From NCBI RefSeq assembly GCF_037201965.1, contig NZ_CP147518.1, forward strand, positions 5,697,001 through 5,761,000: a stretch of DNA of 64,000 bases, in the 5' to 3' direction. The stretch comes from Spirosoma sp. SC4-14 (GTDB taxonomy: Bacteria > Bacteroidota > Bacteroidia > Cytophagales > Spirosomataceae). Under the pieces are notes generated by a model. That model was not told the DNA's origin. It saw nothing but the letters and a program-made list of their open reading frames with translations, and searched no databases. This document shows positions 12,157 to 64,000 of this stretch, in pieces; position 1 is the stretch's first letter, and each line of letters opens with the position of its first letter. The position numbers were made by a program, and so were the translations under genes.

Positions 12157-12675
12157 TCAAGCTCGCGTCAGGACGATTGTCATGGTCGCGTTCACAGGAT
12201 TTCCGTCCTTATCACCAACTTGTTTTTTTGCAGTTAAAGTCAGTGTATTGCCACTGATTGCGGTATCATAATTCTCAATTGTACCGTCGGAATTAGTTAT
12301 TGTAAGCTTGTTGCCACTCATAACCCATTTTCCATTATTGGAAACCGGAGCAACATCGCTTAGTTCATCTGTTCCATCCTGACAGGAGGCTGGATTATTT
12401 GAGGAGGTCGTACCGTTACTATTGAGAGTAAGTGTCAATTCTTTCAGGCATGTTTCGGCTCCAAGTGCTACAAATAGCTGATAGAAATCATCTATTGTCC
12501 CAAAGATACCCGTATCGACAGCCGGGTTAATTTTCATACTGGTTATTTTCCAGTTTCCTTCAACCGAACTGGGCGTTACCGAATCATTACTACTCTTACT
12601 GCAATTACTGAAGGCAAGAGGCAGGACCATAATCAGGGCCCAGGCAAATGAACGAAGCAAATAATTCTTTCTCAT
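12157..12675 (-). CDS. lipocalin-like domain lipoprotein
   Basis: A 172-residue protein with signal peptide and lipobox (hydrophobic stretch ending A-F-S-N-C near residue 24), then a Ser/Asn linker and a beta-rich domain with G-N-W-K-I, typical of the small lipocalin-like domains of Bacteroidota. The frame is open to an ATG at 12810, but the ATG at 12675 places the signal peptide at the N terminus and is preferred. It is a clear paralogue of the next gene (12907-13413): both share S-V/I-E-G-x-W-K-I, a conserved Cys pair and T-I-T-x-S-D-G. Function unknown; outer or periplasmic membrane surface is likely. Confidence 0.78.
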   Translation of the reverse strand: MRKNYLLRSFAWALIMVLPLAFSNCSKSSNDSVTPSSVEGNWKITSMKINPAVDTGIFGTIDDFYQLFVALGAETCLKELTLTLNSNGTTSSNNPASCQDGTDELSDVAPVSNNGKWVMSGNKLTITNSDGTIENYDTAISGNTLTLTAKKQVGDKDGNPVNATMTIVLTRA

Positions 12676-12833
12676 TAAACGTAAATAAAAATATGAACAA
12701 TGGGACTCACCCCAAAAATGACACATAAAGCATATATACAAAGAATAGATTTCGTTAGCGGCATCGTTTGTACAATACATTCTATAAACCGCATACAAAC
12801 AATATCGCAAACTACGCCATGCTCCAGGTTACC

Positions 12834-12877
12834 CTAAAAAAGTTCAGGCTACCTGCATCGTGCAGATAGCCTGAACT
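12834..12877 (-). terminator. intrinsic terminator of the 12907-13413 gene
   Basis: Read on the minus strand, an 11-bp stem (12841-12851 and 12867-12877) with an inner 5-bp stem is followed by a run of six T. It lies 29 bases after the stop of the upstream minus-strand lipoprotein gene. Confidence 0.88.
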
Positions 12878-49508: not shown

Positions 49509-50957
49509 CTACAAGGTACCACTTCGATAAAACTCAACCACTTTTTCCCGTAATAAGCGTTCATACCGCACCTGAATTAAATTCACCAATGCCCGATCCA
49601 GATTGCTCTTAGCCATATTATACTCAACGGCATTTAACAAACCAGCCCGGTAGCGAGCTTCGGCGGCCTTATAAGCTTGTGTTAATACCAGAATCTGTTC
49701 TTCCAATGCCCGGTAGCGGTCGGCCGTATTCTGCCATTGATTCACGGCCTGATCGATAGCCTGTCGCAAATTTCGGCGAACACTTTCGGCATTTGATTCG
49801 GCTAGTTGCTGCTGTAAGCGTGCAGTGGTAGTACGATAACGCACCTGAAATCCATTCAGAATTGGCATGCGAATACTTATCCCTACGCTCTTGTATTGGT
49901 TATTGCCAATCTGCTGAAAATAAGGAATGTGGTCTGTACTTGCTAATGGAGCCAACACTTTAACGGGGTACGATTGCCCAGCCACATCCACAAAACCAGC
50001 CGTTGTTTGCTCAATTAGATCAGTGCCATATACGCTCTGGCGGGCAGCACTTGAATAAGATGTTCCCCAGCCTGCCGTTAACACAATGCTCGGATAGGCC
50101 AAACCTTTGGCAAGCTTTAGACCAACCTGAGCGGCTTTTGTCCGTAACTCGGCGGCTTGTATTTCGGGCATATACGTTCGTGCCTGCGTGTAAATCTGAT
50201 ACCCATCTAATTCGCCAGCCGTTGTTATTTCAGTCTTCGTATCGGGCAGCCGAACCAGATGGAGCTGTGTACTGGATGGTAGATTTAGTAGCTGTAATAG
50301 CGACAACATAGCCGTATTCAGGTTCATCTGGGCCTGTACATGCTGAGTTTGGTCGTTGGCCAACTGACTTTTAACGTCGTACAAATTATAGGGAGCAGTC
50401 GTACCAGCTTTGACCAGTTTTTCAGTATGTTCCACCTGAGCCTGCGCAACGGCCACCTGTACATCGCTGGCAGAAACTAAATCCTGCGCCGACAATACCT
50501 GTAAATAAGCCAGTAAGGTATTAATTATCATCGTGTTTTTAGTGGCTGATGCATCGTACCGGGTCGCCTGTGCCGTGAGACGTTGTTGAGCCAGCGTATT
50601 TTTTAGCTGAAATCCATTAAAAACAGTCCAGTTCAGCGCGAGACCGAGGTTATTGGTGGTGATAGAGGCATTGGTGATACCGTTAGTGTAAGGGTCAACG
50701 TTTCGTCCGAAATTCATACCCTGATTGCTACTTGCCTGCACAGTAGGGAGCAGGCTTTTCTGGGTCTGTTCAACCGTATTGTCGGCTAATTGTTGGTGTA
50801 AAGCTGCCTGTCGAACTGAGGGTTGATTTTCCAATGCGAGTGTAATGCACTGGTTAAGTGTTAAGGTCATGGACGTTGGCGCTGAAGTACCTCCCGATTG
50901 TGCCCAGCCTGTTCCAATAGTCCATAGCACGATTCCTGTTGTTATGATCTGTTTCAT
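49509..50957 (-). CDS. TolC family outer-membrane efflux protein
   Basis: A 482-residue outer-membrane channel. A signal peptide (about 1-20, cut near G-W-A-Q) is followed by two homologous helical halves rich in Gln/Ala with the TolC-type T-L-N-Q-C-I-T-L-A-L-E-N-Q-P opening. Its start overlaps the stop of the C39 ABC transporter by four bases, so it is the last gene of the exporter operon and provides the outer-membrane duct for exported peptides. Confidence 0.93.
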   Translation of the reverse strand: MKQIITTGIVLWTIGTGWAQSGGTSAPTSMTLTLNQCITLALENQPSVRQAALHQQLADNTVEQTQKSLLPTVQASSNQGMNFGRNVDPYTNGITNASITTNNLGLALNWTVFNGFQLKNTLAQQRLTAQATRYDASATKNTMIINTLLAYLQVLSAQDLVSASDVQVAVAQAQVEHTEKLVKAGTTAPYNLYDVKSQLANDQTQHVQAQMNLNTAMLSLLQLLNLPSSTQLHLVRLPDTKTEITTAGELDGYQIYTQARTYMPEIQAAELRTKAAQVGLKLAKGLAYPSIVLTAGWGTSYSSAARQSVYGTDLIEQTTAGFVDVAGQSYPVKVLAPLASTDHIPYFQQIGNNQYKSVGISIRMPILNGFQVRYRTTTARLQQQLAESNAESVRRNLRQAIDQAVNQWQNTADRYRALEEQILVLTQAYKAAEARYRAGLLNAVEYNMAKSNLDRALVNLIQVRYERLLREKVVEFYRSGTL

Positions 50958-53212
50958 ACGGCCAGCGTAGTTTGCGGTTCGAGAGGAGTGGCTACTGATT
51001 GATCCCCATTAGCACTAATCTGGAGCAAATCGATCGATGGAATCGAAAGCCCTGCTACTGTTAGTGGCATCTGCGAAGCCCAGAGTTTGTAATAGGCATT
51101 GCCTCTGGCCAGTAATTCGGTGTGCGAACCTTCTTCGGTCAATTTTCCCTGCTCAACCACCATAATTTTATCGGCGTGCATGACCGTGCTTAATCGGTGA
51201 GCAATCAGAATTACGGTTTTGTGCTGTTGGCGCAGGAGCCGGATGGTTTGTTGTACGCACTGTTCCGAAATCGAATCCAGCGATGAGGTAGCTTCGTCCA
51301 GAATCAGTATATCGGGGTTTTGATACAAGGCCCGCGCAATAGCAATCCGCTGTTTTTGTCCACCCGACAAACTGGCTCCATTTTCGCCCAGATAGGTATG
51401 AAACCCATTAGGTAGTTTCTCAATAAATTCGGTAATGCCCAGTTGCTGACATGTAGCTACAATACGCTCCATATCGGGCTGATATTCGCCAACGGCAATA
51501 TTATCGATCACATTACCGGCAAACAGGTCGATTTTTTGCGGCACCACACTCACCTGACGGCGCAGGCTTTCGTTGCTGATGTGTTTAATGTCGTAGTCGC
51601 CAATATGAATAGTGCCCTGCTGAAGCGGATACAAATTCTGTAAGAGCGAGAGAAGTGTAGATTTGCCCGAACCACTTTCGCCAACGACCGCCGTAATTTT
51701 TCCTTTTGGAATGGTCAGGCTAAGCTGATCGAATACCTGGGTGCGGGTTCCATACCGGAACGATACATCCTGAAAGCGAATGTCGCCAATCATATCGGGC
51801 CGAAGCTCAATTTTATTCTCGGTCGCTTCCCGTTCCAGATCCATAATCTCAAACAGCCGGTCGGCGGCAATCAGTGCATCCTGTACGGTTCGGTTGGCTC
51901 CAATAAGCTGGCTGGCAGGGCCTGTAAAATAGCCTATCAGCGAATAAAAGGAAAGTAACTCACCCGGCGTAATCTGATTGTCGATCACAAAACCAGTACC
52001 GACCCAAAGTAGAATAATTGTAAACAGACGCGACACAATTTCGGTGGCATTGCCCGACCATACCGAATTACGTGCCGATGTAAAAATGGTTTTGAGAAGT
52101 TTCACAAACCGGGTTTCGGTTTTGATATTGGCAAAGGCTTCCAGACCAAACCGCTTAATGGTTCCCATTGCGTTGAGCGACTCGACCAACTGCGATTCCA
52201 ACTCGGCGGCATCTTCCATCAGAGTGCGCTGGTATTTTTTGTTCAGTTTATTGACCACAAAATAGATACCGGCATAAAACGGAATCACGGCTACCATAAT
52301 CAGAGCCAGTTTCCAATCGTAGGTAAACATCATACCGAACGAAAACAACACAATGAATACATTAACGACCAGACTGGTAGCGGCATCGTTAATAAAAGCC
52401 CTAATCTTGACCGCATCGTTGATACGTGAAATAATTTCGCCTACCCGCATCGTGTCGAAAAACTGCTGGGGCAACGTCATCAGGTGTTTGTAATAGCCCA
52501 GAATCAGCCGGGCATCGATCTGCTGACCTGTTTTCAGGGCAAACATGCTTTTCAGGCTACCAATGAAAAGCTGGAGTACCAGAATCAGAATCATTATAAT
52601 ACTCAACAGATTGAGCAGATTTCGATTACCTTCCACAATCACATTGTCCACAATTTTCTGGACATAAATGGAGGTCGATAGCCCTAATACGGTGTAAATC
52701 AGAGCGCCAAACAACGCCTGAATCATGACGCTACGGTGTGGGCGAATCAATTGCCAGAACCGTTGCATGGCTGATACTTTCTCGTTGCCGGTTTCAAATT
52801 GTTCGCCAGGTAGCAGTAAGATCAGTACACCTGTCCAGATTTTCTTAAATTCCTCATGGCTGTGTTTTATGAGTTTACCGGGGCCGGGGTCCATCACCAC
52901 AATATGTTTGTCGGTCACGTCGTAGATGACCACAAAATGATGGAGCACTTCTTTCACAATGACATGAGCGATGGCTGGTTTCGGAATTTTCGACAGACTT
53001 TCAAACGTACCGCGCACGCCTTTGGCCTGAAAACCCAACCGGGTAGCCGCTTCGATCATACCCAGCACATTAGTGCCTTTCTGATCGGTCGATGCCAGTT
53101 GCCGAATGCGGGCAATGGGCATCATCAGGTTATAGTGGGCCGAAATAGAAGCCAGACAAGCCGCTCCGCAATCGGTTATATCGTGTTGTTTGATGATCGT
53201 ATTTTTTGCCAT
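50954..53212 (-). CDS. peptidase C39 domain ABC transporter (double-glycine peptide exporter)
   Basis: A 752-residue fusion that cleaves leaders and exports peptides. The N-terminal C39 cysteine peptidase (1-130) has catalytic Cys15 in D-C-G-A-A-C, His92 in H-H-F-V-V-I-Y-D, and Asp108. Six transmembrane helices (about 160-450) follow. The nucleotide-binding domain has G-E-S-G-S-G-K-S-T, L-S-G-G-Q-K-Q-R and I-L-I-L-D-E-A-T-S. C39 peptidases cut after Gly-Gly. Three candidate substrates with such leaders lie upstream (57038, 63335, 63497). HlyD and TolC genes flank it. Confidence 0.95.
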   Translation of the reverse strand: MAKNTIIKQHDITDCGAACLASISAHYNLMMPIARIRQLASTDQKGTNVLGMIEAATRLGFQAKGVRGTFESLSKIPKPAIAHVIVKEVLHHFVVIYDVTDKHIVVMDPGPGKLIKHSHEEFKKIWTGVLILLLPGEQFETGNEKVSAMQRFWQLIRPHRSVMIQALFGALIYTVLGLSTSIYVQKIVDNVIVEGNRNLLNLLSIIMILILVLQLFIGSLKSMFALKTGQQIDARLILGYYKHLMTLPQQFFDTMRVGEIISRINDAVKIRAFINDAATSLVVNVFIVLFSFGMMFTYDWKLALIMVAVIPFYAGIYFVVNKLNKKYQRTLMEDAAELESQLVESLNAMGTIKRFGLEAFANIKTETRFVKLLKTIFTSARNSVWSGNATEIVSRLFTIILLWVGTGFVIDNQITPGELLSFYSLIGYFTGPASQLIGANRTVQDALIAADRLFEIMDLEREATENKIELRPDMIGDIRFQDVSFRYGTRTQVFDQLSLTIPKGKITAVVGESGSGKSTLLSLLQNLYPLQQGTIHIGDYDIKHISNESLRRQVSVVPQKIDLFAGNVIDNIAVGEYQPDMERIVATCQQLGITEFIEKLPNGFHTYLGENGASLSGGQKQRIAIARALYQNPDILILDEATSSLDSISEQCVQQTIRLLRQQHKTVILIAHRLSTVMHADKIMVVEQGKLTEEGSHTELLARGNAYYKLWASQMPLTVAGLSIPSIDLLQISANGDQSVATPLEPQTTLAV

Positions 53213-53248: not shown

Positions 53249-54439
53249 TTAGTTTTGAGCCAGGCTGTTGGTTTGAGGGTTTAGCCAATCGTCGGCTTTG
53301 TCGTAGAGTAGGTCGAACAGGCTACGGCGGGTCACGACAAAGCGAGCCCGAAGGGTCATGCCTTTTTTGAGATAGCCTTTATAGCCTTCCTTAAGTGTCA
53401 GAAAATTTTGGTCGAGCTTACACTTTACTTTAAACACTGGCTGTTTAGTCGCTGCTCCATTATCCATTACTACAATATCATTGGATACCTCCACCACTTT
53501 GCCCTGGACTAATCCCCACTGGTTGTAATCGAAGGCATCGACCTGCATTCGGGCCATCATACCTGGGCGTAGCAACCCAATATCCTTTGGTGATACATAA
53601 CACTCAACCAGCAGATTAGAATCGGGCGACACTACGCCAAGTACCTCGCCTGGCTGCACATAACTGCCTGGATAACGGCCCGCCAGTTGGCTAACCGTAC
53701 CCGCAACCGGAGCTTTTATGGTATGCAACGCCCGTTCGTTGAGCAATTGACGTTCCTGAGCACGAAGCTCATCCAGGGCTAGCTGATGCTGGGTAAGGGT
53801 TGCCTGCCAATCGCTAACCTGCCGTTCTATCTGTGATGCGTACTGAGCCACAACAGTTTTATAGGCATACTCTTTATCTTCAAACTCCTGTTGGGCCAAT
53901 ACTTTATCCTGGTACAGTTGTCGGGTAACGTCCAGTTCGCGTTTACGCTTCTGCTGCGTTTGGGTGTTTTCGGTTAGCAGAAACCGAAACTGCTCATACT
54001 GTTGCCGAACCAGGGGCGATTGTAGACCAGCTACGGTCAGTAAAGTACTTCGGTCGGCCCGAACGAGTCGTTCCAGATCGCGTATATCGCGGAGCTTTTC
54101 AGCTTGTTGGGAGTGGTTGAGCCGGAGTTTGGTTTCCAGTACATCGGTCTGCAACCGAATCATGGGCTGACCCTGGCGAACAGGCTGGTTATCGTGTACC
54201 AGCACCTCGGCTACCGTACCGGCCACCAGCGGGCGGAGTTCGTTTCGTTCGGCCACCGGACGAATAATGCCACTGCTTTGGACCGATACGTCGGTATGAA
54301 TAAACGGGAGTGAAAGTAAGGCCACCACAATGGCCAGAGCAACCGAGCCGTAGATGAGTTGGCCCCGAACCGTAACCTGGGGCAGATATGCCTCCGTTGT
54401 GTACTCGATAACGGTAGGCGGGTGTAAGGTATGTGGCAT
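53249..54439 (-). CDS. HlyD family secretion adaptor
   Basis: A 396-residue periplasmic adaptor. It has a short cytoplasmic N terminus, one transmembrane helix (about 28-46), a lipoyl-like half (L-V-A-G-T-V-A-E-V-L-V-H-D-N-Q-P-V), a long coiled coil (about 100-220, with alternating Leu/Gln/Arg), and the second half motif I-K-A-P-V-A-G-T-V. It bridges the ABC transporter encoded 36 bases downstream and the TolC channel. It is the first gene of the three-gene exporter operon. Confidence 0.93.
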   Translation of the reverse strand: MPHTLHPPTVIEYTTEAYLPQVTVRGQLIYGSVALAIVVALLSLPFIHTDVSVQSSGIIRPVAERNELRPLVAGTVAEVLVHDNQPVRQGQPMIRLQTDVLETKLRLNHSQQAEKLRDIRDLERLVRADRSTLLTVAGLQSPLVRQQYEQFRFLLTENTQTQQKRKRELDVTRQLYQDKVLAQQEFEDKEYAYKTVVAQYASQIERQVSDWQATLTQHQLALDELRAQERQLLNERALHTIKAPVAGTVSQLAGRYPGSYVQPGEVLGVVSPDSNLLVECYVSPKDIGLLRPGMMARMQVDAFDYNQWGLVQGKVVEVSNDIVVMDNGAATKQPVFKVKCKLDQNFLTLKEGYKGYLKKGMTLRARFVVTRRSLFDLLYDKADDWLNPQTNSLAQN

Positions 54440-54568: not shown

Positions 54569-56494
54569 TCAGAAATGCCACTTAATCCCGAACGATACAG
54601 TGATGGGCCGTATCAGTTGGGTTGAGATTGTAGAAGAAACACCGAATTCAGTGTCATTCAGCCCGGTATCTGCTTTCTTATTGAAGAGTTTTCCTTTTTC
54701 CTGAAATCGTAAAAAAGGCGTTTTGTCGAGCAGAACATATTGATTTGACTCAATAAAGTACTCACGTCTTTTTTTGAGAAAAGCCAAACCAATACCACTC
54801 ACCAACACGGGAGATTTATCGGCATAAAATGCGTTAATAGCTCCCGAAAGGCGTTTATTTTGTACGGTATATCCGTCTGGGTGGTCAAGCTTGGTTAGCA
54901 GGTATCCTTCTTTCAAACTACCTACCCCGGCCAAACCATACAGAAATAGCGGGTTTCCCCGCTTTCGAATCAGTTGACGGAATCGCATGGCTAATTGACC
55001 TACCGAATAAAATTGATTGCCTAACAGTTCACTCGACGACGAAATACTTACCGACCATCGGTTCGTTAGCCTGAATCCAATATTCGTTCCTGTACCTATC
55101 GGAATTAATTTTGATGCCGGAAAATCCGAACGACTATCGAGCAGTTGCCCCTGAATAGTAGTAGCATAAACCGGATCATGGTTACCATACAGTGCAGCGC
55201 CTGCCGAATAGCCAAAACTTAGCCGCGATAAGACCGCATAGATTTTCTGTTTCGATGACTTTTTGGGCGTAGCCGTCGAAAGTGACCCTGAAATTGCTCT
55301 CGGCTCTGATTGGCTTGTTCGTTCCTTCGATACGGTCTGAAAGTCGGTCAGTTTTGTTCTAAGCGACGAATCGGCTTCGAAACTGGTGTAGTTTTGCCAG
55401 AAATCGGCATCGTTGTTTCGGTCTAAATCAGAAAAAATGGCTCCATAAGCCAATCGTTGTTCATACGGAATAGGCTCGGCCGACGCAGTGAACTGAGTTG
55501 TAACGAAAAGGAGGTCGTGTGCCGATTGTTTTTTGGTCTTTCGGTTGTAGTAGGTTCCTTTTAGCATAGTATAGGCCAGATGCCATACGCCCTGCTCCTG
55601 AATATAGGTACTTTCAAAAGAACGGTTCAGCCGATCCACCGATGATAAAAGGCCTACTGGATCTAGGCTGCCATTTTGATAGCTGATTTTTACATAGGCC
55701 AGCGTTTTTTTGTCGAGCCACAACTTGCCATTAATTTTCTCCAACTGGTCGCGCGAATTAAACCGAATTACATACACCGAATCGTTGTTATAGGTTGTAA
55801 TGGCGCTGAGCGAATAATGGTATTTTTTGTTGAACGATGAGGGCTGGATAAACGAAGCTCGTTGTTTAACAGGGTCGTTCCAGTTGGCTATGAATGGCCC
55901 TCCATACCACCGTGTATGATCGACTGAGTCACGAGTTGAATTTTTGTTGATGCGCGATTTCACAATTCGTATCTGAGTATCTTCGCCCGTAGCCCGATAG
56001 CCGTTGGAAAACAGGTTAAGATAAGCTTCGCCATAGTACAGCAATTCGTCGGGTATGCCGGTATGAAGTTCCCGATAAAAGCCGTCTATGCCGAATGAGG
56101 TATTGGGGTAGTTCTGCGGAATTTTCTGATAGGCTTTACTGAGTAGATGTTTCAATGTAGTATCGGGCATAACCACCACTTCGGCCAGTTCCAGCCCTTT
56201 CGTTAGCGTGATTTGTACAGGTTGCTTATTTGTTTCTACCGTCACTTTTTGGGATTGATAGCCAACACTACTAACCAAAAGCTGACAAGGGAGGGAGGTA
56301 ACATTAAGGTTAAACTCACCTCGTTCGTTGGTAATTGTTCCTCTGGCTGAGCCAATCTGTTGTACAGACGCAAACGGAACTCCGGCATGACTGGTTGTTA
56401 AAACTTTGCCGGTTACCTTTTGTGCGTAAGCAACAGAATAGCTAGCCAGATAAAAGAACAAACCTATCCAATACGTAGCCATCCGACCCTGCAT
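54569..56494 (-). CDS. outer-membrane protein with carboxypeptidase-like regulatory domain
   Basis: A 641-residue protein from the ATG at 56494, whose signal peptide ends A-Y-A-Q. Residues about 25-115 form a CarboxypepD_reg-like domain (V-T-G-K-V, G-T-I-T-N-E-R-G-E-F-N-L, V-S-S-V-G-Y-Q-S). The remainder is beta-rich and ends like a barrel strand (F-G-I-K-W-H-F). The longer frame to 56626 is rejected because a hairpin and a promoter box (56512-56519) lie within it. It sits between the Cys-rich protein gene and the exporter operon; a role in receiving or exporting the peptide is possible but unproven. Confidence 0.78.
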   Translation of the reverse strand: MQGRMATYWIGLFFYLASYSVAYAQKVTGKVLTTSHAGVPFASVQQIGSARGTITNERGEFNLNVTSLPCQLLVSSVGYQSQKVTVETNKQPVQITLTKGLELAEVVVMPDTTLKHLLSKAYQKIPQNYPNTSFGIDGFYRELHTGIPDELLYYGEAYLNLFSNGYRATGEDTQIRIVKSRINKNSTRDSVDHTRWYGGPFIANWNDPVKQRASFIQPSSFNKKYHYSLSAITTYNNDSVYVIRFNSRDQLEKINGKLWLDKKTLAYVKISYQNGSLDPVGLLSSVDRLNRSFESTYIQEQGVWHLAYTMLKGTYYNRKTKKQSAHDLLFVTTQFTASAEPIPYEQRLAYGAIFSDLDRNNDADFWQNYTSFEADSSLRTKLTDFQTVSKERTSQSEPRAISGSLSTATPKKSSKQKIYAVLSRLSFGYSAGAALYGNHDPVYATTIQGQLLDSRSDFPASKLIPIGTGTNIGFRLTNRWSVSISSSSELLGNQFYSVGQLAMRFRQLIRKRGNPLFLYGLAGVGSLKEGYLLTKLDHPDGYTVQNKRLSGAINAFYADKSPVLVSGIGLAFLKKRREYFIESNQYVLLDKTPFLRFQEKGKLFNKKADTGLNDTEFGVSSTISTQLIRPITVSFGIKWHF

Positions 56495-56511
56495 AACTAT
56501 ATTTCGAAGTT

Positions 56512-56519
56512 CAAAAGTA
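56512..56519 (-). promoter_or_regulatory. -7 box of the 54569-56494 gene
   Basis: Minus strand TACTTTTG matches TAnnTTTG exactly, 17 bases before the chosen ATG. It supports that start and an own promoter for the gene. Confidence 0.5.
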
Positions 56520-56536
56520 TACACTCGTAAAAATGC

Positions 56537-56578
56537 CATACTATTCCTCTCTAAAACTTTAAAGAGAAACAGTATGGC
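56537..56578 (-). terminator. hairpin between Cys-rich gene and barrel gene
   Basis: GCCATACT... at 56537 pairs with ...AGTATGGC ending at 56578 over about 20 positions, with three mismatches that are all of transition type (two of them could form G-T pairs on either strand). It lies about 50 bases after the stop of the Cys-rich protein gene and would end that transcript. Confidence 0.5.
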
Positions 56579-56627
56579 AGCTATAGAGCTATTTCGTAAA
56601 CCGCTTATTCCGGCTCTGACATTCACC

Positions 56628-57026
56628 TTATTCAGTAACAGCTAACCCCTGAACGCGAATGTTTCGGACTACCTCATTGCAGTTGGCACAAGCACTGGCT
56701 CCTTCCTGATGAAACCATCGACAATTACTGCGAATAGCGCAAACCGGTAACGTTTGCGCTACATTTCGATTCATAGCTTCTACTAGTTTGCCTACCAAAC
56801 TACAGCCTGCATTGCCCGAGTCCCAATGGCCGCAGCCACTTTTTGCACAGTTGCTGGCAAACCGAAATCGTTCTTCGGGCGCGCGCCCCTGCCGGGCTGT
56901 TTCAACAAAGGTTTTATCAACCACGATAGGTTCTTCAAGATATTCAATATGACCGGTTGAATCCTGAATACCAAACAGCGTAGCACCGGGTTTGGCTATA
57001 GAACTAGGGCAAAGCAGAGAAGCCAT
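56628..57026 (-). CDS. Cys-rich protein next to a double-glycine peptide
   Basis: A 132-residue protein with eight Cys in an ordered pattern: one at residue 6, then C-A-K-S-G-C-G-H-W, a single C, L-P-V-C-A-I-R-S-N-C-R-W-F, and A-C-A-N-C. The pattern suggests a metal or iron-sulfur site. No signal peptide or membrane segment is seen. It starts 11 bases after the 76-residue precursor gene and is certainly co-transcribed with it. It could be a maturation enzyme, a chaperone or an immunity factor; I do not recognise a named family with certainty. Confidence 0.72.
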   Translation of the reverse strand: MASLLCPSSIAKPGATLFGIQDSTGHIEYLEEPIVVDKTFVETARQGRAPEERFRFASNCAKSGCGHWDSGNAGCSLVGKLVEAMNRNVAQTLPVCAIRSNCRWFHQEGASACANCNEVVRNIRVQGLAVTE

Positions 57027-57037
57027 ACGAACTAAAA

Positions 57038-57268
57038 TTAGATTGATACAGGATATAATAGCACAGACTGCAATTTGATCGGCTCTTGTGGGAACATTCC
57101 CATTGTTTGCAGACTACTCAGGATGCTTATACCACCATCGATTTTTTGCTGCAAATCGTCGGTCAGTTGGCCGGCTTCATCCAGATTAGCCAGTTGTTTC
57201 ATGAACTCCTCCTGGCTGGAGGCACCGTCTTGTAAGGCTTTAACTTTGGTATTGATCTGTTTTTTCAT
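57038..57268 (-). CDS. double-glycine leader peptide precursor (76 aa)
   Basis: A 76-residue peptide. Residues 1-46 are a charged, helical leader ending L-T-D-D-L-Q-Q-K-I-D-G-G, with Leu at -12, Ile at -4 and Gly-Gly at -2/-1 relative to the cut, as in C39-processed bacteriocins. The 30-residue core that follows is hydrophobic, has no Cys and contains three Pro. It is followed by the Cys-rich protein gene. The C39 ABC transporter that would process it is 4 kb downstream on the same strand. The activity of the product is unknown. Confidence 0.75.
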   Translation of the reverse strand: MKKQINTKVKALQDGASSQEEFMKQLANLDEAGQLTDDLQQKIDGGISILSSLQTMGMFPQEPIKLQSVLLYPVSI

Positions 57269-57388
57269 ACCTGGTTTATCGTTTATTTATTTGGATGTTT
57301 TAACAGATCAAAGGTCTTTGGATTTATTTCCATAAGCTAAAACAACTCGTTATTAATCATTCCTTTACGTCATAACTTAGTCTAAAAC

Positions 57389-57420
57389 AACCCCTAAAAG
57401 CAGCACCGCTTTTAGGGGTT
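57389..57420 (-). terminator. terminator of the permease-peptidase gene
   Basis: A perfect 13-bp stem (57389-57401 and 57408-57420) with a 6-base loop, followed on the minus strand by a T-rich stretch, separates the long permease gene from the precursor peptide gene. Confidence 0.75.
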
Positions 57421-57434
57421 GGATAACCATTGGT

Positions 57435-60400
57435 TTAGGGTCCGTCAACAGCTTTTACATTATCGCCAGGGTGCCGGTCAATGAGTAGGTTCAGTGGATC
57501 GATACCCGCACGCTCCGGCTTTTGATCTACACGTACCGTAATCGTTTGCATTGGACGATTGATGCGATGCCGCTGGTAATAAAGCAGTTTACCCTGCCTG
57601 CTCTCTTTCGAATGGGGAGCATATACGCCAATCCATATCCATTCATTGATAGGTAAGTTGGTTTCGTTTCCCAGACTATCGGCATGTACTTTTTGTGCTG
57701 ATAGCCGGAGCGTTACCTCATATGCTTTACCCGAAGGCTTTACCGTTACCTGCTCCGTCTTCAGTTCATAAAGCGTGATGTTATTGACCCAATCATCCAG
57801 TAATCCTTGTAGTGTGTCGGGCGTTATGGCTCGCAATTCGGCCGTCAGGTCGGCGGCTGTTGGGTAGATCCCGCTTTTAGCCACCTGATCGACATTCCAA
57901 CGGGCGCGGTAACTGCGTAACGCCTGATTGATTCGGTCTTCACCCAGTTGATCCTGCAAAGCATATAATACTAATGCACCTTTATTGTAATGGATATACG
58001 ACTGGTGTTCGCACTGCGCAAGTGGCTGTTCTTTTTTAGTTTCGGACTGTCGCCCTCTCAGATAATAATCCAGTTCGTAGCCCAGAAACTCCTTCATCTG
58101 TTCGGGAGCATAGTGATGTTTCATAACCATCAGGGCGCTATACTCCGCGAGCGATTCAGACAGAAAACCATTCCCTCGCACATTGGCCTCTATTACCTGA
58201 TGCCCCCACCACTGATGAGCTGTTTCGTGGGCTGTCACAAAAAAGGGCATATCGACATCGTTCCTGTCATCGATGTCGGCCACAAATCCCATATCCTCGC
58301 CAAAGGGAATGGTATTGGCAAATGACTGAGCATAGGCCCGATAGCGCGGAAATTCCATAACTCGTAGCTGCCGATGCTGAAACGGGCCAAAGTTGATCTG
58401 GTAGTAGTCCAGAGCAGCTTTCATACCGCGCATCATGCGATCCAGATTGTGGGTATGCCCTGGATGGTAGTATATTTCCAGACTAACTGGATCCCCACCT
58501 TTGCTACGGTATAGCTCTTTTCGGACGGCATAGCGGGCCGATACGATAGAGTAAAAATTGGCAATTGGGCTATCCATTTTGTACGAAAAGTATCGTCGGG
58601 GCATACCATCAGGACCTTTGGCGATCCACTCTTTTTGCAAATAACCTGGTGCAATCGCTAGCTGATCGGGCGATGTACTAATGGTCATGGCAAACCGAAT
58701 CAGGTCGGCATCCTTACCTAACACATTCTGTCGTCGGGCAATTGGATCATTCTGTGCCCTCATTCGTTCTTTGGGTGCCAGTCCGTTCTCTTTCCGCTTA
58801 TCGTCGTCCTGTAGTTCATACTGCTCATTATAGCCAATGCCTGGAAAATACTGATTCGTAAAGAACGTACCATTCTGTACAATTTCGGTGTTTTCGCCAT
58901 TGTTCTTAAATCCTTTGGTCCGATATAGCAACTCAAAATCGAGCTGGAGGCTATCGCCCGGCAGGAGCGGTTTATCGAGCGCAAAGATTCGGTACGAAAA
59001 ATCGGTCGCATACCGGTCGTTGAGCCGATTGGGAACCGACAGTTGAAGCTGTTTTACCTGCATTTCTTCGGTCGATAGTAGTTGCAGGTGAAGTTGCCGA
59101 ATTGGCTGATTGGTTTTATTCTGGAGTATATACCGGCCTTTGGCTGTAAAATCGCGGGTTTGCGGATACAGATCGATAGCTATTGAAACATTCGTAATCC
59201 GGGGCTGCGGCAGGTTGGCAAATCGGCGCAACGTTTTTTCATAACGGGCGCTTTCGGCTTCGTCCTCTTTATGATTCTGGTATTTGTGAAGCACGTTTGT
59301 ATTATAGTAAACATACGAACCCGTACAGACAAACACCAGAAAAGCCGCCAGCACAAAGGTCAGCATAGAGCGTGTTAGCTGATAACGCCCTATACGCAGC
59401 CGAACCTTCATAAGGGTTTCAGAACCCCGAACCGACAGCAGCACCGCTGCCGCAAATAGAATGGCCCCAAAGGCCAGCCAATAGAGCGACGTCCAGGAAT
59501 AGGGTGCCACATAGTGGCCAAAGCCGTTCATGTCAGAATACGCGCCAAGCGAACCCCCTCCGAAAATGAGTAGGTTGTGCTCAATACCCAGGTAAGACAG
59601 CATGCCCAGCGAAACAAAGAACAGAAGCAACAAGGCATGACCCGCAAATTTATTATTGACAACCACATGAATAAAAAAACCCAGCAGCATCAACGTCAGC
59701 AACGAAAGTAAGGCGTTTCCATATAGGCTGGTGGCATATACCCGCCATTCGATCAGGGCAGCTTCACCTTTCATTGTCTGTATACAGGCACCCAATAGTA
59801 TGCCTAGTGCAATGACAATGGCGAAGGCCAGGCCCAAACCGAGGTATTTGCTAACCAACATAATCCAGTTGGGCACGGGTAAAGCGTCGCTAATCTGACT
59901 GATTCGAACGTCGCGCTCTTTCCAGGTCAGATCGCCTACATAAAGCACCATCAGGATGAACAGAAACAATCCTGTAAAGATCGTCATCTTGTTCAGCATA
60001 ACGTAGGTTGTAGGCAACGTGTGCGTACCATACCATTCGCCTGTATTGTTGACAGCCGAGAAGACAAACATGCCTAATCCGCCAATACATAAGGCCAGAA
60101 ACGGCAAGTCTTTCATAACTACTTTAGTGTAAAAACCTGTCAGTCGCCACAGGTTGATCAACCAGTTTCCCGACCCATACTGCCGCGTTACTTGTTTTAA
60201 CGGAGCGCGTAGGTCCCATACATCACTTTTGGCAATCAATGGTTTCTCTTTCCCGACAGATCGTTTTGTAGACGACTGGTATGAAAACAGCCAATAGGTA
60301 ATCGCCATGCACAGGGCCGCTACGCCTAGCCACAATACCCGATTCCAGAGTAGCATATCACTTAGCGGAATCAAAGCATTATTTTTCTGGCTAATCGACC

Positions 60401-61070
60401 AGTATTGGGTTGTATACCATACGGCTCTCAGGCCAAAGGGGTCTAACAAAGCAGCTACTTCGCGCCGGTCTATTTCAGACAGGAACGTACCCGACACCAA
60501 ATACAGAATCAGAAACCCCATTCCCTGCACAAACACAACCAGCATTCGTCGGCTCAGGGCTCCGACCATAAAAAATAGAGTACCGGCAATGAGAGCGTTT
60601 GGCAACAAAATTGTCCAGTACGGTTGCCAGTAAGCCGCCATCCGAATGGGTAGCATCCGGTCAGGGTTTCGCCAGGGAGCCAGATCGCCCAGTAATAGGC
60701 CGAGCGGTATGGCCATAAGCAGGATGAGCAGGATGAGCATGGCCCCCACATAGCGCCCGGTCAGAAACTCCCATTTACGGATGGGTTTGGTAAAAAATAA
60801 GGCATCGGTTCGATGCTCAAAATCACGCACCACCGCTACGCCCATAATCGCTGAGCTAACCAGGATGCCCATCATCATAAACAGAATCAGGCTAATAGTG
60901 GTCAGAACAGTAGTGCCATTGTCTTTCACAGCTCCTCCCGACAAGCCCTTAATGAGATCGGTAGCCACCGTAGCAAAGCTGATACCGAGAAGTAAGGCAA
61001 AAAAAAGATACGTAGCCGGACGATTTCGCCGGTAACGAAACTCGAATCGCAGGATCGATAACCAGTTCAT
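57435..61070 (-). CDS. ABC-2 type permease fused to an M1 family aminopeptidase
   Basis: A 1211-residue membrane protein. Residues about 1-600 contain two blocks of ABC-2-type transmembrane helices, each followed by a soluble loop. Residues about 640-1200 form an M1 gluzincin peptidase with H-E-T-A-H-Q-W-W near 945 and the third ligand Glu in S-E-S-L-A-E-Y. The partner ATPase gene lies directly upstream (31-base gap). In Bacteroidota this fusion is known but its substrate is not. Placed among double-glycine peptides, it may move or trim peptides for self-protection (inference). Confidence 0.9.
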   Translation of the reverse strand: MNWLSILRFEFRYRRNRPATYLFFALLLGISFATVATDLIKGLSGGAVKDNGTTVLTTISLILFMMMGILVSSAIMGVAVVRDFEHRTDALFFTKPIRKWEFLTGRYVGAMLILLILLMAIPLGLLLGDLAPWRNPDRMLPIRMAAYWQPYWTILLPNALIAGTLFFMVGALSRRMLVVFVQGMGFLILYLVSGTFLSEIDRREVAALLDPFGLRAVWYTTQYWSISQKNNALIPLSDMLLWNRVLWLGVAALCMAITYWLFSYQSSTKRSVGKEKPLIAKSDVWDLRAPLKQVTRQYGSGNWLINLWRLTGFYTKVVMKDLPFLALCIGGLGMFVFSAVNNTGEWYGTHTLPTTYVMLNKMTIFTGLFLFILMVLYVGDLTWKERDVRISQISDALPVPNWIMLVSKYLGLGLAFAIVIALGILLGACIQTMKGEAALIEWRVYATSLYGNALLSLLTLMLLGFFIHVVVNNKFAGHALLLLFFVSLGMLSYLGIEHNLLIFGGGSLGAYSDMNGFGHYVAPYSWTSLYWLAFGAILFAAAVLLSVRGSETLMKVRLRIGRYQLTRSMLTFVLAAFLVFVCTGSYVYYNTNVLHKYQNHKEDEAESARYEKTLRRFANLPQPRITNVSIAIDLYPQTRDFTAKGRYILQNKTNQPIRQLHLQLLSTEEMQVKQLQLSVPNRLNDRYATDFSYRIFALDKPLLPGDSLQLDFELLYRTKGFKNNGENTEIVQNGTFFTNQYFPGIGYNEQYELQDDDKRKENGLAPKERMRAQNDPIARRQNVLGKDADLIRFAMTISTSPDQLAIAPGYLQKEWIAKGPDGMPRRYFSYKMDSPIANFYSIVSARYAVRKELYRSKGGDPVSLEIYYHPGHTHNLDRMMRGMKAALDYYQINFGPFQHRQLRVMEFPRYRAYAQSFANTIPFGEDMGFVADIDDRNDVDMPFFVTAHETAHQWWGHQVIEANVRGNGFLSESLAEYSALMVMKHHYAPEQMKEFLGYELDYYLRGRQSETKKEQPLAQCEHQSYIHYNKGALVLYALQDQLGEDRINQALRSYRARWNVDQVAKSGIYPTAADLTAELRAITPDTLQGLLDDWVNNITLYELKTEQVTVKPSGKAYEVTLRLSAQKVHADSLGNETNLPINEWIWIGVYAPHSKESRQGKLLYYQRHRINRPMQTITVRVDQKPERAGIDPLNLLIDRHPGDNVKAVDGP

Positions 61071-61101: not shown

Positions 61102-62031
61102 TTAAGCTGCCACCGACGAAACGACGGGCTGCATCTGATACCGCTTAACCGCGTCGGTTATCTCTGTAAAATACACCTCTTCCAGCCCGACCTCAACGGG
61201 TACAAAACCAGGTGCTGGTTGCACTAACGAATAGGCATATACGACGGGTTCGCCAGCAATCATGCGTTCGTTGATAATGATGAGCGTCCGGTATAGCTCA
61301 TCGACTTCCGACAGGCGAGCCTGTTTTTTCCAGATGTGACCTTTAAGTTTGTCGATAGCCTCCATTGGATGCCCCCACAACAGTACCTCTCCTTTATTGA
61401 TGATGGCCATCTGGCGACAAAGCTCCTCAACATCCTCGACAATATGCGTCGATAGAATAACGATTGCTTCCTGCCCAACTCCGGCCAACAGATTCAGAAA
61501 ACGATTTCGTTCGGCGGGGTCCAGGCCAGCCGTGGGCTCGTCGACAATAATGAGTTTGGGGTTGCCCAGCAGAGCCTGTGCAATACCAAACCGCTGCCGC
61601 ATCCCCCCTGAGTAGCCACTCAGATTTTTCTTCCGCACATCCCAAAGATTGACTCGTTGTAGTAGTGTTTCGACAGTCTCCCTCCGCTCCGACCGGTTAT
61701 GAATGCCTTTGAGCATAGCCAAATGATCGAGCAGCGTAATGGCATCGATGCGGGGGTAAACGCCAAAATCCTGCGGTAAATAACCCAATACCTTTCGCAG
61801 TTCATCGGGTTGGCGAACCGCATCAATATCCTGACCATTAAGATCTTGCAGCACAACGCGCCCTTCGTCGGGCAGTTGCAGCGTGGCAATCGTCCGCATC
61901 AAACTCGACTTACCAGCCCCATTTGGGCCCAGCAGTCCAAAAAGGCCGGGTTCAATCGTGAGCGAAACATGGTTAAGCGCCCGAACGCCATTGCTGTACG
62001 TTTTGGCAAGGTTTTCAATCAATAGTTTCAT
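61102..62031 (-). CDS. ABC transporter ATP-binding protein
   Basis: A 309-residue ATPase with Walker A G-P-N-G-A-G-K-S near 33-40, signature Y-S-G-G-M-R-Q-R near 137, Walker B L-I-I-V-D-E-P and D-loop G-L-D-P. The ATG at 62031 (M-K-L-L-I-E-N-L) is preferred to the frame start at 62049. It energises the permease-peptidase encoded next. A promoter at 62092-62123 reads into it. Confidence 0.94.
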   Translation of the reverse strand: MKLLIENLAKTYSNGVRALNHVSLTIEPGLFGLLGPNGAGKSSLMRTIATLQLPDEGRVVLQDLNGQDIDAVRQPDELRKVLGYLPQDFGVYPRIDAITLLDHLAMLKGIHNRSERRETVETLLQRVNLWDVRKKNLSGYSGGMRQRFGIAQALLGNPKLIIVDEPTAGLDPAERNRFLNLLAGVGQEAIVILSTHIVEDVEELCRQMAIINKGEVLLWGHPMEAIDKLKGHIWKKQARLSEVDELYRTLIIINERMIAGEPVVYAYSLVQPAPGFVPVEVGLEEVYFTEITDAVKRYQMQPVVSSVAA

Positions 62032-62091
62032 ACACATCAGGAGAAACAAGGTGACACAAGTGTGGCAGACTTTCTGTAGCTACCAGGCTGT

Positions 62092-62226: not shown

Positions 62227-62781
62227 TTACGAATAAGGTTCTTCGGGCCTAATTACCATCAGGCCAACTTTAGTAGGGTGGTCTTGCACAAGCACATCGG
62301 AAGGCAGATGCCGCATAAGCCATAGTATCATTACATCGCCAACAGCCGCAAGGGTAAAAAAAACGCCAAAAGACAGTAACCAGACATGACCTGTCAGTAG
62401 CGAAACAGCATAGGGAACCAGGCCTAAAATAACTAATGGCATTACCACCACTACCCGGTATTTTCCAGATGTCATGGGAACCGTGGCATGACAGTAAGGG
62501 CTTCCTGACTTTACATCGAAACCAAATTTAATATGCTGCCAGCCTATCCGTCCATACCAGTGTGCCGTAAGCCCATGAATGAGTTCATGGACGACAATAC
62601 CGATGAACATAGCCACTATAAAAAGAAGAATAGGAACCACTCCCGAAGGGAGTAATTGCTTGGGAGAAAAACCCCAGATCTGATAAAACGGCCAAAACAG
62701 CAAGGGTGCACCTATAACAAAGGCTACCACACCAAATGCCTGGGCTTTTATAGCCGAAATGGTGAGGTCTTTTGTAGGCAT
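62227..62781 (-). CDS. DUF3267 membrane metalloprotease-like protein
   Basis: A 184-residue integral membrane protein with four to five hydrophobic segments and the motif V-V-H-E-L-I-H-G-L-T, an H-E-x-x-H zinc site inside a membrane helix, as in DUF3267 and other site-2-protease-like families. The ATG at 62781 is preferred to a GTG at 62805. It lies upstream of the ABC ATPase gene but behind its own promoter region. A role in cleaving membrane peptides, possibly those of this locus, is inference. Confidence 0.82.
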   Translation of the reverse strand: MPTKDLTISAIKAQAFGVVAFVIGAPLLFWPFYQIWGFSPKQLLPSGVVPILLFIVAMFIGIVVHELIHGLTAHWYGRIGWQHIKFGFDVKSGSPYCHATVPMTSGKYRVVVVMPLVILGLVPYAVSLLTGHVWLLSFGVFFTLAAVGDVMILWLMRHLPSDVLVQDHPTKVGLMVIRPEEPYS

Positions 62782-63114
62782 AGTGTAGGTTCTTGAGGTT
62801 GTCACTTAAATCCGATTACCTTGATGATGAATATGGTTGAAGTGTCCTCCCCCCGAATCGCGTAACCATTGAACAGTAGAAAAATTGCGTTATTTTCACT
62901 TAATCAATGGTTGCGCGATTCGGGGGGAGGACAAGTGGTTTGCCTTCATAAAGGCCTTGAATAGCGGCCTGTTTGAAGACCTTGAAATCGAATAGGCCAG
63001 TCATACTTGTGAAAATAAGGATTTCTCGTTTCCCTTCTATTGACCCGCAGGCTTGACACAGTTCAGCGAGCAGTCTTACCGTGGAAGCATCTAAATAATC
63101 ATATAGCTATTGTA
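62782..63114. other. region with a MITE and a possible gene remnant
   Basis: Besides the inverted-repeat element at 62840-62936, the minus-strand frame from 63106 to 62900 is open for 69 codons with protein-like composition. It has only an internal ATG at 63004 (M-T-G-L-F-D-F-K-V-F). The frame runs into the element and stops inside it. Confidence 0.45.
62840..62936. mobile_element. 89-bp MITE-like element with 4-bp target duplication
   Basis: Two 29-bp arms (62844-62872 and 62904-62932) are reverse complements with a single mismatch; their outer ends read GTCCTCCCCCCGAATCGCG. A 31-bp centre separates them. AAGT stands on both sides (62840-62843 and 62933-62936), a likely 4-bp target duplication. 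No transposase is inside. It is unrelated in sequence to the element at 6959-7046. Confidence 0.75.
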
Positions 63115-63264
63115 TTATTTTTTACTGATAATTGCAATAGCAAAGCAAATAGCCGAAATTATATATAAATACTTTAATACTCGATCTTCCGCATTGTATC
63201 CTAAATACAAGAATGCGAGTATTGGAAACAAAAAAATAAGCCTGAGCATTCTTCCATCTTTCAT
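63115..63264 (-). CDS. 49-aa two-helix membrane protein, candidate immunity protein
   Basis: Found by hand translation of the minus strand. It has a short basic N terminus (M-K-D-G-R-M-L-R), a hydrophobic helix (L-I-F-L-F-P-I-L-A-F-L-Y-L), a polar turn (N-A-E-D-R-V-L-K), a second helix (I-I-S-A-I-C-F-A-I-A-I-I) and a terminal S-K-K. A purine-rich GGGAG lies 3 bases before the ATG, a better ribosome site than most in the window. It is 25 bases downstream of the terminator of the two bacteriocin-like peptides. Size and topology fit class II bacteriocin immunity proteins; function is inferred. Confidence 0.6.
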   Translation of the reverse strand: MKDGRMLRLIFLFPILAFLYLGYNAEDRVLKYLYIISAICFAIAIISKK

Positions 63265-63288
63265 ATTCTCCCAAAAATATAGAAAAAC

Positions 63289-63322
63289 CTATCTACCTGA
63301 CCTTGGTAGGTCAGGTAGATAG
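63289..63322 (-). terminator. intrinsic terminator of the peptide pair
   Basis: A perfect 14-bp stem (63289-63302 and 63309-63322) with a 6-base loop, followed on the minus strand by G and five T. It lies 13 bases after the stop of the 50-residue peptide gene. Confidence 0.9.
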
Positions 63323-63334
63323 CAGATTTACAAA

Positions 63335-63487
63335 TTACCACGCGTGACGCCGTTCGCGTTCTGCTGCATCTTTACCATACTGATATGCCCTTGCACATAA
63401 TGCAACTACAACACCTACTACCTCCCAAAATCCACCATTGATTTGTGCTAATTCAGCATCTTCAATTTCTTGCAGTTCCATATTCAT
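63335..63487 (-). CDS. double-glycine bacteriocin-like peptide precursor (50 aa)
   Basis: Found by hand translation. A 50-residue peptide with a 19-residue leader ending E-I-E-D-A-E-L-A-Q-I-N-G-G; it has Ile -12, Glu -8, Leu -7, Ile -4 and Gly-Gly at -2/-1, the class II bacteriocin pattern. The start may be the ATG at 63487 or 63481. The 31-residue core has a hydrophobic first half (F-W-E-V-V-G-V-V-V-A-L), one Cys, and a very charged second half ending R-E-R-R-H-A-W. It follows the 57-residue peptide gene after 9 bases and precedes a terminator. Confidence 0.78.
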   Translation of the reverse strand: MNMELQEIEDAELAQINGGFWEVVGVVVALCARAYQYGKDAAERERRHAW

Positions 63488-63496
63488 CTTATTATT

Positions 63497-63670
63497 TTAT
63501 CGATTATTATAATAACCCGCACCCAAGCATACTGTAATTGCCGCACAAGATGCTGTGAATGCCCAGCAACCAACCATTACTGCTAGTGGTAGGAATCCTC
63601 CTTCTACTAATGCGAGGTCTTGAATATCTAATTCTAATACTTCTGCTTGATTTAAATTCAAAACTTCCAT
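63497..63670 (-). CDS. double-glycine bacteriocin-like peptide precursor (57 aa)
   Basis: Found by hand translation. A 57-residue peptide with a 25-residue acidic leader ending L-D-I-Q-D-L-A-L-V-E-G-G (Leu -12, Asp -8, Leu -7, Val -4, Gly -2/-1). The 32-residue core is almost fully hydrophobic, with Cys at 35, 42 and 48 of the precursor and an end G-A-G-Y-Y-N-N-R. It is the first gene of a two-peptide unit, as in two-component class II bacteriocins. Export by the C39 transporter of this region is likely, though that gene is 10 kb away. Confidence 0.8.
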   Translation of the reverse strand: MEVLNLNQAEVLELDIQDLALVEGGFLPLAVMVGCWAFTASCAAITVCLGAGYYNNR

Positions 63671-64000
63671 TTATTTCAACAATTTAAGTCAACGTTTAAA
63701 ATCAATACTATAACAGATTTTATTATGGATGTTATGAGCTAGGCCCTTGATCCATTTTCTACTACCACTCCCTCCGCTTAAACCCGGGATGCATCGGTTG
63801 TGATAGGGTACTCTTAATATATTCTACAACTTGTATTTACTAATCGAGCTAATATAGCAATTTTCTAACTAATGTCTTTGATGGGTCGCTGCCCATATCT
63901 AATAAGATCCTGTTTAGTTATCTTCCGAAAATTTGCCGTAGCCCGATCAATATATACGGTTGTAGCTTTCCATTAATTCTTGATTCATTGGCTTGCCAAA
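63671..64000. other. upstream region of the peptide pair
   Basis: AT-rich leader without a firm promoter match. On the minus strand from the window end, 17 codons are open to a stop at 63947-63949. A second frame (63865-63972) then continues in a protein-like manner, so the broken end of a gene may lie here. No complete gene is seen. Confidence 0.4.

Follow-up and report, generated by a model that had tools for sequence, protein, structure and literature searches.

Double-glycine peptide genes of Spirosoma sp. SC4-14 and the presumed exchangeable cassette that holds them: a likely multi-peptide bacteriocin-like locus

The peptide genes and the cluster around them

The window, by which we mean the whole stretch of 64,000 nucleotides analysed here, is one part of the 8.1-Mb genome of Spirosoma sp. 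SC4-14 (G000 in our comparisons). Near its end lie two very short genes on the minus strand, 9 nt apart (63488-63496). The first, pepA (63497..63670, minus strand), encodes a 57-residue double-glycine (GG) precursor made up of a 25-residue leader and a 32-residue hydrophobic core with three Cys. The second, pepB (63335..63487, minus strand), encodes a 50-residue GG precursor with a 19-residue leader and a 31-residue core. The first half of this core is hydrophobic and the second half charged; it holds one Cys and not a single Ser or Thr. Each of the two cores has a net charge of +1. On the 3' side of pepB there is a hairpin resembling an intrinsic terminator (63289..63322, minus strand), with 15 perfect pairs, a 4-nt loop and a T-run. 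A double-glycine leader is defined here by a hydrophobic residue at -12, an acidic one at -8, hydrophobic residues at -7 and -4, and GG at -2/-1. The residues at -12/-8/-7/-4 are L/D/L/V in pepA and I/E/L/I in pepB, with GG following in each, and both leaders thus agree with the definition position by position. The first-pass annotation had described two neighbouring genes of 57 and 50 codons, leaders of this kind, cores that differ in just this way and a strong terminator behind the pair, and all of that holds.

Could genes this short be chance reading frames, or decayed remnants without a product? Their very shortness speaks for such an origin, as does a pepA core that is not convincingly found elsewhere. 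Whether the leader pattern is applied in its loose or its strict form, pepA and pepB are the two small ORFs of the window that match it. In 60 resamplings of the window by a first-order Markov model the mean was 0.97 loose hits (maximum 4) and 0.02 strict hits (maximum 1), and no resampling held two neighbouring hits on the same strand; the reversed window gave none. At these rates a single loose hit is ordinary, but a tandem of two strict hits is not. The leader family also recurs, and most of the change in shared cores, including that of pepB, is synonymous (see below). We regard chance or decay as very improbable, and pepA and pepB as genes with strong support from their sequence.

Against the curated NCBIfam model of class IIb peptides, TIGR03949, pepA scores 25.3 bits (cut-off 21.5) and pepB 19.7 bits, slightly under the same cut-off. 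AlphaFold2, run on single sequences, predicts a helix over residues 16-56 of pepA (mean pLDDT 77) and over residues 3-48 of pepB (mean pLDDT 93), which is weak evidence at such a length. The promoter element TAnnTTTG was not found within 330 nt upstream of pepA.

Genes that could export such peptides are close by. A TolC-type outer membrane channel (49509..50957, minus strand; PF02321 over its cut-off, TIGR01844 below), a peptidase C39-ABC transporter (50954..53212, minus strand; PF03412 at E 2.9e-36, TIGR01193 at 551.9 bits against a cut-off of 523.85) and an HlyD-type membrane-fusion protein or MFP (53249..54439, minus strand; PF13437 over its cut-off, NCBIfam TIGR01843 below) lie 9-14 kb downstream of pepA and pepB on the same strand. 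The C39 domain keeps the Cys region DCG and the His/Asp region HFVV...DPG. Between this set and the peptides is a 1211-residue membrane protein (57435..61070, minus strand) with HExxH in its C-terminal half, which adjoins some arrays and which we take to be a fusion of an ABC permease and an M1 peptidase. It is followed, on the way to the peptides, by an ABC-type ATPase (61102..62049, minus strand), named from its motifs and a weak similarity to the ATPase part of C39-ABC transporters. Next come the gene for a putative zincin peptidase of the DUF3267 type (PF11667; 62227..62805, minus strand), associated with the peptide slot, and a 49-residue hydrophobic ORF (63115..63264, minus strand) behind the terminator.

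Some further features of this region deserve mention in their own right. A long inverted repeat (62843-62933), with 41-nt arms that are 85% complementary and 9 nt between them, occupies the gap between the DUF3267 gene and the 49-residue ORF; its 17-base core is found exactly in 7 of 77 loci, always at the same place. A 76-residue peptide with a leader ending in IDGG and a hydrophobic core (57038-57268, minus strand) stands beside a 132-residue Cys-rich protein without a Pfam match (56628-57026, minus strand). Relatives of both recur in G011, G013, G014 and G017, and in G039 the larger protein is accompanied by several leader-like small ORFs; this is possibly another peptide system. Elsewhere in the genome a CPBP match and another C39 transporter are about 3 kb apart (G000:C1:3774986-3775450 and 3771887-3772249), and that region may be a second bacteriocin-type locus. 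In L031 a second C39/MFP set belonging to the same genome has a single GG peptide with a 44-residue hydrophobic core in its vicinity (12658-12864, minus strand).

Past the end of the window (L009) the cluster continues with a small lipoprotein-like gene, read from sequence, then a further GG precursor, LanB, a histidine kinase and a LytTR regulator. The LanB, a lanthipeptide dehydratase, is full-length (L009 7183-10347, minus strand), and the precursor adjoining it (L009 6553-6732, minus strand) has a core rich in Ser/Thr and free of Cys. The LanB-side precursors of relatives have no Cys in, for example, G021 and G030, and one or two in others. The genome has three LanB matches and one LanC (PF05147) match; there is no LanC near the cluster, that only match being about 143 kb from the cluster's LanB. 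A LanB without a nearby LanC poses a second, testable question of chemistry. The pair had been described as a two-peptide operon, which was right about the adjacent precursor genes and otherwise too narrow: the same slot holds two to seven peptides in relatives, and the pair lies inside a cluster of LanB, two-component and type I secretion genes. We reject a stand-alone operon because this conserved cluster runs on beyond the end of the window.

Arrays in related genomes

We compared 14 loci. Thirteen are from the genus, with LanB at about 60% identity or more or MFP at 83% or more (own locus included), and the other is from Pseudarcicella hirudinis (G039), which is placed in the Cytophagales by NCBI and is the one compared locus from another genus. 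Arrays of two to seven GG peptides occupy the same slot in 11 of the 14 loci, our own included, for a total of 52 peptides. Counting our own, the genus is represented by 36 genomes; a LanB match of some kind is present in 31 of them and an MFP match at 1e-30 in 17. The 52 peptides were chosen by eye with loose leader patterns, so counts of leader positions in this set are biased upward. The total leaves out G007 and G010, which have other long leaders in the slot, and G026, in which no array was seen, along with the GG precursors adjoining LanB, Pro-rich GG peptides and a 28-residue candidate in G014. Six further loci with MFP at 50-60% (L048, L050, L052-L055) were scanned and stand outside the count; L048, L050 and L052 hold GG-pattern peptides.

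Individual loci have their own peculiarities. The slot of G007 and G010 (L047 11349-12057 and L049 10862-12324, plus strand) contains peptides with long leaders ending in AGG; the one that was tested resembles the alpha chain of nitrile hydratase (26.8 bits, Pfam cut-off 27.2). Near these peptides is a 661-residue protein; the L047 version carries TPR repeats together with a guanylate-cyclase domain. The LanB and C39 transporter of G019 are each in two reading frames (L044 4743-7846 and 12494-14706) beside an intact peptide array, either a real break or a sequence error.

Certain peptides come back in several genomes. A three-peptide set is found in G013, G021 and G011, another set in G020 and G030, and two related cores are common to G019 and Pseudarcicella. 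Smith-Waterman (SW) scores of at least 55 are reached by 36 of 1216 inter-genome core pairs, against none in 20 shuffles. The shared cores change mostly at synonymous sites: pooled over 17 pairs, pS is 0.72 and pN 0.18 in the cores, and 0.65 and 0.30 in the leaders. These are simple uncorrected counted proportions from pairs picked for their similarity, one of which is a paralogue pair within G020.

The two peptides of our own array differ in how well they can be followed. A relative of pepB occurs once among 99 genomes and once in a named collection, in which records of our own genome may be missing, and both hits are the same place in Pseudarcicella hirudinis. Its core differs from that of pepB with pS 0.96 and pN 0.35, and the two have the stretch GKDAAE..RR.A in common. 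The pepA precursor aligns with 13 relatives at 25-39% identity, chiefly through the leader. Its whole-precursor matches among the 99 genomes (own included) are weak, with E from 0.0015 to 0.009, and are confined to G046, G059 and G014. No core of the array set reaches SW 55 against the pepA core, which to judge from these searches is without a convincing relative. A profile of pepA and the 13 related precursors (A2), searched at E<=0.001 in 291 genomes of the order, matches 15 of them, five from the genus and ten outside it, the latter with weak E-values of 3e-8 to 4.5e-4. In G046, one of these ten, a tandem of two GG peptides lies close to a fragment of a C39-ABC-type ATPase. Conservation of the reading frames with a synonymous bias, which the first-pass annotation had looked to as a check, is therefore seen for the pepB core in one relative; for pepA the leader alone is clearly shared. 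The description of the pair as double-glycine, C39-exported and bacteriocin-like is nonetheless well supported by the TIGR03949 match of pepA and the nearby C39/MFP/TolC set, as well as by the leaders and the mostly synonymous change in shared cores.

The composition of the cores bears on what kind of peptide these are. GxxxG is a helix-helix motif that is a feature of class IIb two-peptide bacteriocins. It occurs in 25 of the 52 cores against 13.6 in shuffled ones, and none of 1000 shuffles reaches 25, many of the cores being interrelated. The cores of pepA and pepB contain no strict GxxxG and three small-xxx-small motifs each.

Ser or Thr is present in 50 of the 52 cores, and 20 of them, pepA included, have Ser/Thr as well as Cys. 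It could then be argued that the array peptides are lanthipeptides or other RiPPs that the full-length LanB upstream modifies before export, and the available text of one study does describe GG-leader class I precursors and C39 proteases from Bacteroidetes (PMC7268733). The argument fails for pepB. With neither Ser nor Thr, its core offers a dehydratase no residue to modify, and we reject pepB as a LanB substrate; pepA and most other array cores could still serve as one. Several other facts speak against modification of the arrays in general. Thirty-one of the 52 cores lack Cys, the only LanC match is far away, and the LanB has a GG precursor of its own beside it. The array of G011 has its nearest LanB about 12 kb off, at 50% identity, and that of G039 has none within the 40 kb examined. 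On balance we think it unlikely that these peptides are LanB products.

Cassette exchange and the possible role of the peptides

The nearest relative, G020, is 87% identical to our genome up to 62325 and 90% identical over 63771-63965. Between these flanks is a 1.4-kb block (62326..63770) without blastn similarity to G020 (E 1e-3), which we presume to be an exchanged cassette. Its left edge falls inside the DUF3267 gene, and besides pepA and pepB it contains the 49-residue ORF and most of the DUF3267 gene. At its other edge, upstream of pepA, is the 21-bp motif CATCCCGGGTTTAAGCGGAGG (63771..63791, minus strand), the downstream end of which is the point where similarity to G020 stops. A search of 36 genomes, our own among them, that allowed up to two mismatches returned the motif five times, in four close genomes and each time upstream of such an array. 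As a general element it must be rejected, being absent before other arrays and found in those four genomes only; it is either a clade-specific regulatory element or the joint of a recombination event. G014 has the lipoprotein-like gene and the motif in duplicate (L021 13113-13373 and 15778-16038), each copy followed by a GG-peptide set of its own, which looks like the tandem addition of a cassette. G014 also has only parts of the ABC ATPase and of the large membrane protein, on the other side of its cluster (L021 3485-6156, minus strand). Our genome has two further stretches without a blastn match in G020, one with the small lipoprotein-like gene and the LanB-side precursor (L009 5966-6893) and one with the 132- and 76-residue genes (54955-57391 of the window).

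Relatedness of the exporter says little about which cores are present. The MFP of G020 is 93% identical to our own and the two arrays share no cores, while G021 and G011, at 81%, share six of seven. The correlation between core sharing and MFP identity is 0.03 (Spearman; 55 non-independent pairs), or -0.06 within the genus. Among the 11 genome pairs with an MFP identity of at least 88%, seven share no core and four share 25-40%, so near relatives are not invariably different.

There are candidates for immunity genes. CPBP/Abi proteins confer bacteriocin immunity in Gram-positives, including at the pneumococcal blp locus. Genes for CPBP proteins (PF02517, Rce1-like) lie downstream of the peptides in G014, G020, G030 and G032, that is, in 4 of the 11 array slots. 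By area about 0.03 would be expected in the 53 kb of slots, against the four genes seen; this expectation comes from 40 PF02517 rows in 11 genomes, with one gene listed twice and the slot limits set after the loci had been viewed. The slot of our own genome has no CPBP match, and the candidates beside the pair are the 49-residue ORF and DUF3267 only. The ORF has weak matches in 10 of 98 other genomes (E 0.007 to 0.1), six of the ten with internal stop codons, and its top z-score against 19 ORFs picked from relatives' loci is 2.3. It sits behind the terminator, without a relative that could be relied on, and as an immunity protein it is speculative. DUF3267 matches 5 of the 36 genus genomes. 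It is in the slot in G000, G014 and G030, and the matches in G034 and G010 are weaker and elsewhere; small remnants of it persist in the slots of G020 and G032.

The peptides might instead be signals. Quorum sensing is another use of GG peptides and C39 exporters, according to the accessible text of PMC7595303, and the histidine kinase and LytTR regulator that open the cluster recur with it. In such a scheme the products of the arrays would be pheromones sensed by this pair, and the kinase, which is the less conserved partner (46-68% in most genus loci), could track them. The regulator fits this poorly, being 75-87% identical in G013, G014, G017, G019, G030 and G032 (54% in G011) though the array peptides differ. 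Up to seven different cores in one array are hard to explain as signals as well, and the CPBP genes in four slots are a better fit to immunity. We consider signalling an improbable function for the arrays.

We believe, with moderate confidence and on the strength of sequence comparison, that these are C39-processed multi-peptide bacteriocin-like toxins held in an exchangeable cassette and exported across two membranes. The products of pepA and pepB would mature into small secreted peptides that are largely helical and, for pepB at least, carry no modification. Their leaders would address them to the neighbouring C39-ABC transporter, which would cut after Gly-Gly, and the cores would leave through the MFP/TolC conduit. 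Once outside they would most likely insert, probably together, into the membranes of closely related competitors and kill them in the way of multi-peptide bacteriocins. The upstream LytTR pair presumably regulates the system. The peptides and their presumed protection genes would be replaced as a block by recombination in the conserved flanks, while the backbone of export and regulation stays. Several points count against this bacteriocin interpretation: the pepA core has no convincing relative, the pair has no strict GxxxG, our own slot lacks a CPBP match, the small membrane ORF beside the pair is behind the terminator, and TAnnTTTG is missing within 330 nt upstream of pepA. Arrays of up to seven peptides are also a poor fit to a simple pair. 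We hold toxins to be no better than probable, and still give signals some slight weight, on two grounds: conservation is lower in the kinase than in the regulator, and cores are shared by some close relatives.

We lean, a little more cautiously, towards a broader picture of a polymorphic peptide-toxin locus of the Cytophagales. A LanB/LytTR module and a tripartite C39 exporter would enclose a fixed slot, and species would exchange its contents, two to seven GG peptides together with presumed immunity genes, as blocks. Related cores occur in a second genus, and a conserved 21-bp element would mark the cassette edge in one clade. Such a locus would be a Gram-negative counterpart of blp. If this is true, the Cytophagales, within the Bacteroidota, run an exchangeable multi-peptide bacteriocin locus of a Gram-positive kind with export across two membranes. 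There would be dozens of natural core variants, and mutual inhibition is predicted between strains with different cassettes. The peptide sets common to several genomes are ready groups for tests of activity and immunity.

Comparison with known systems

The first-pass annotation had suggested that this pair may be new, GG peptides being well described in Firmicutes and less so in Cytophagales. GG peptides as such are not new in the Bacteroidota, because class II bacteriocin genes have already been published there, to go by the text available of a preview article (PMC12648078) and of the work on bacteroidetocins (PMC6671954). In the literature searched, subscription papers being mostly outside our reach, we came across no account of an exchangeable array of GG peptides like this one from Cytophagales.

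Bacteroidetocins are the obvious comparison within the phylum. The portion of PMC6671954 available to us describes GG-leader peptides encoded with a peptidase-ABC transporter gene in Bacteroidota, and in this they resemble our pair. Their leaders are of 15-16 residues, the mature peptides of 42 residues have four Cys in the two studied first and at least two in others, and their partner genes encode TM proteins and mostly thiol-oxidoreductases (PMC6671954). With leaders of 25 and 19 residues, cores of 32 and 31 and three and one Cys, pepA and pepB fall outside the bacteroidetocins as that text defines them.

Class I lanthipeptide clusters of Bacteroidetes combine LanB with GG leaders and C39 proteases in the account consulted (PMC7268733), and all three are present here. 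The genus is no stranger to such genes, Spirosoma linguale being credited with four LanB and five LanC genes in the text at hand (PMC3091789). The difference is that no LanC is near our cluster and that the pepB core cannot be dehydrated, whereas pepA has both Ser/Thr and Cys. The export set of C39-ABC transporter, MFP and TolC is that of colicin V, as outlined in the part of PMC10352776 seen; here it would serve a variable peptide array in a cluster that also has LanB and the LytTR pair.

The class IIb bacteriocins of the lactobin A/cerein 7B model (TIGR03949) share with our locus the two adjacent GG precursors, and pepA passes the cut-off. However, pepB is under it, the pair has no strict GxxxG, arrays number two to seven peptides and any immunity gene is a candidate. 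The pair is not a class IIb system in the strict sense.

The nearest working model, by analogy, would be the blp (pneumocin) locus of Streptococcus pneumoniae. This is a quorum-sensing-controlled locus with a transporter and a variable bacteriocin/immunity region that differs between strains, in the text available of two reports (PMC4860687, PMC6422914). The likeness is that of a peptide region served by a transporter, with a content that differs between relatives; it rests on how the locus is described. The Spirosoma cluster differs from blp in its tripartite export over two membranes, in a LanB with a precursor of its own in the cluster, and in the related cores found in a second genus.
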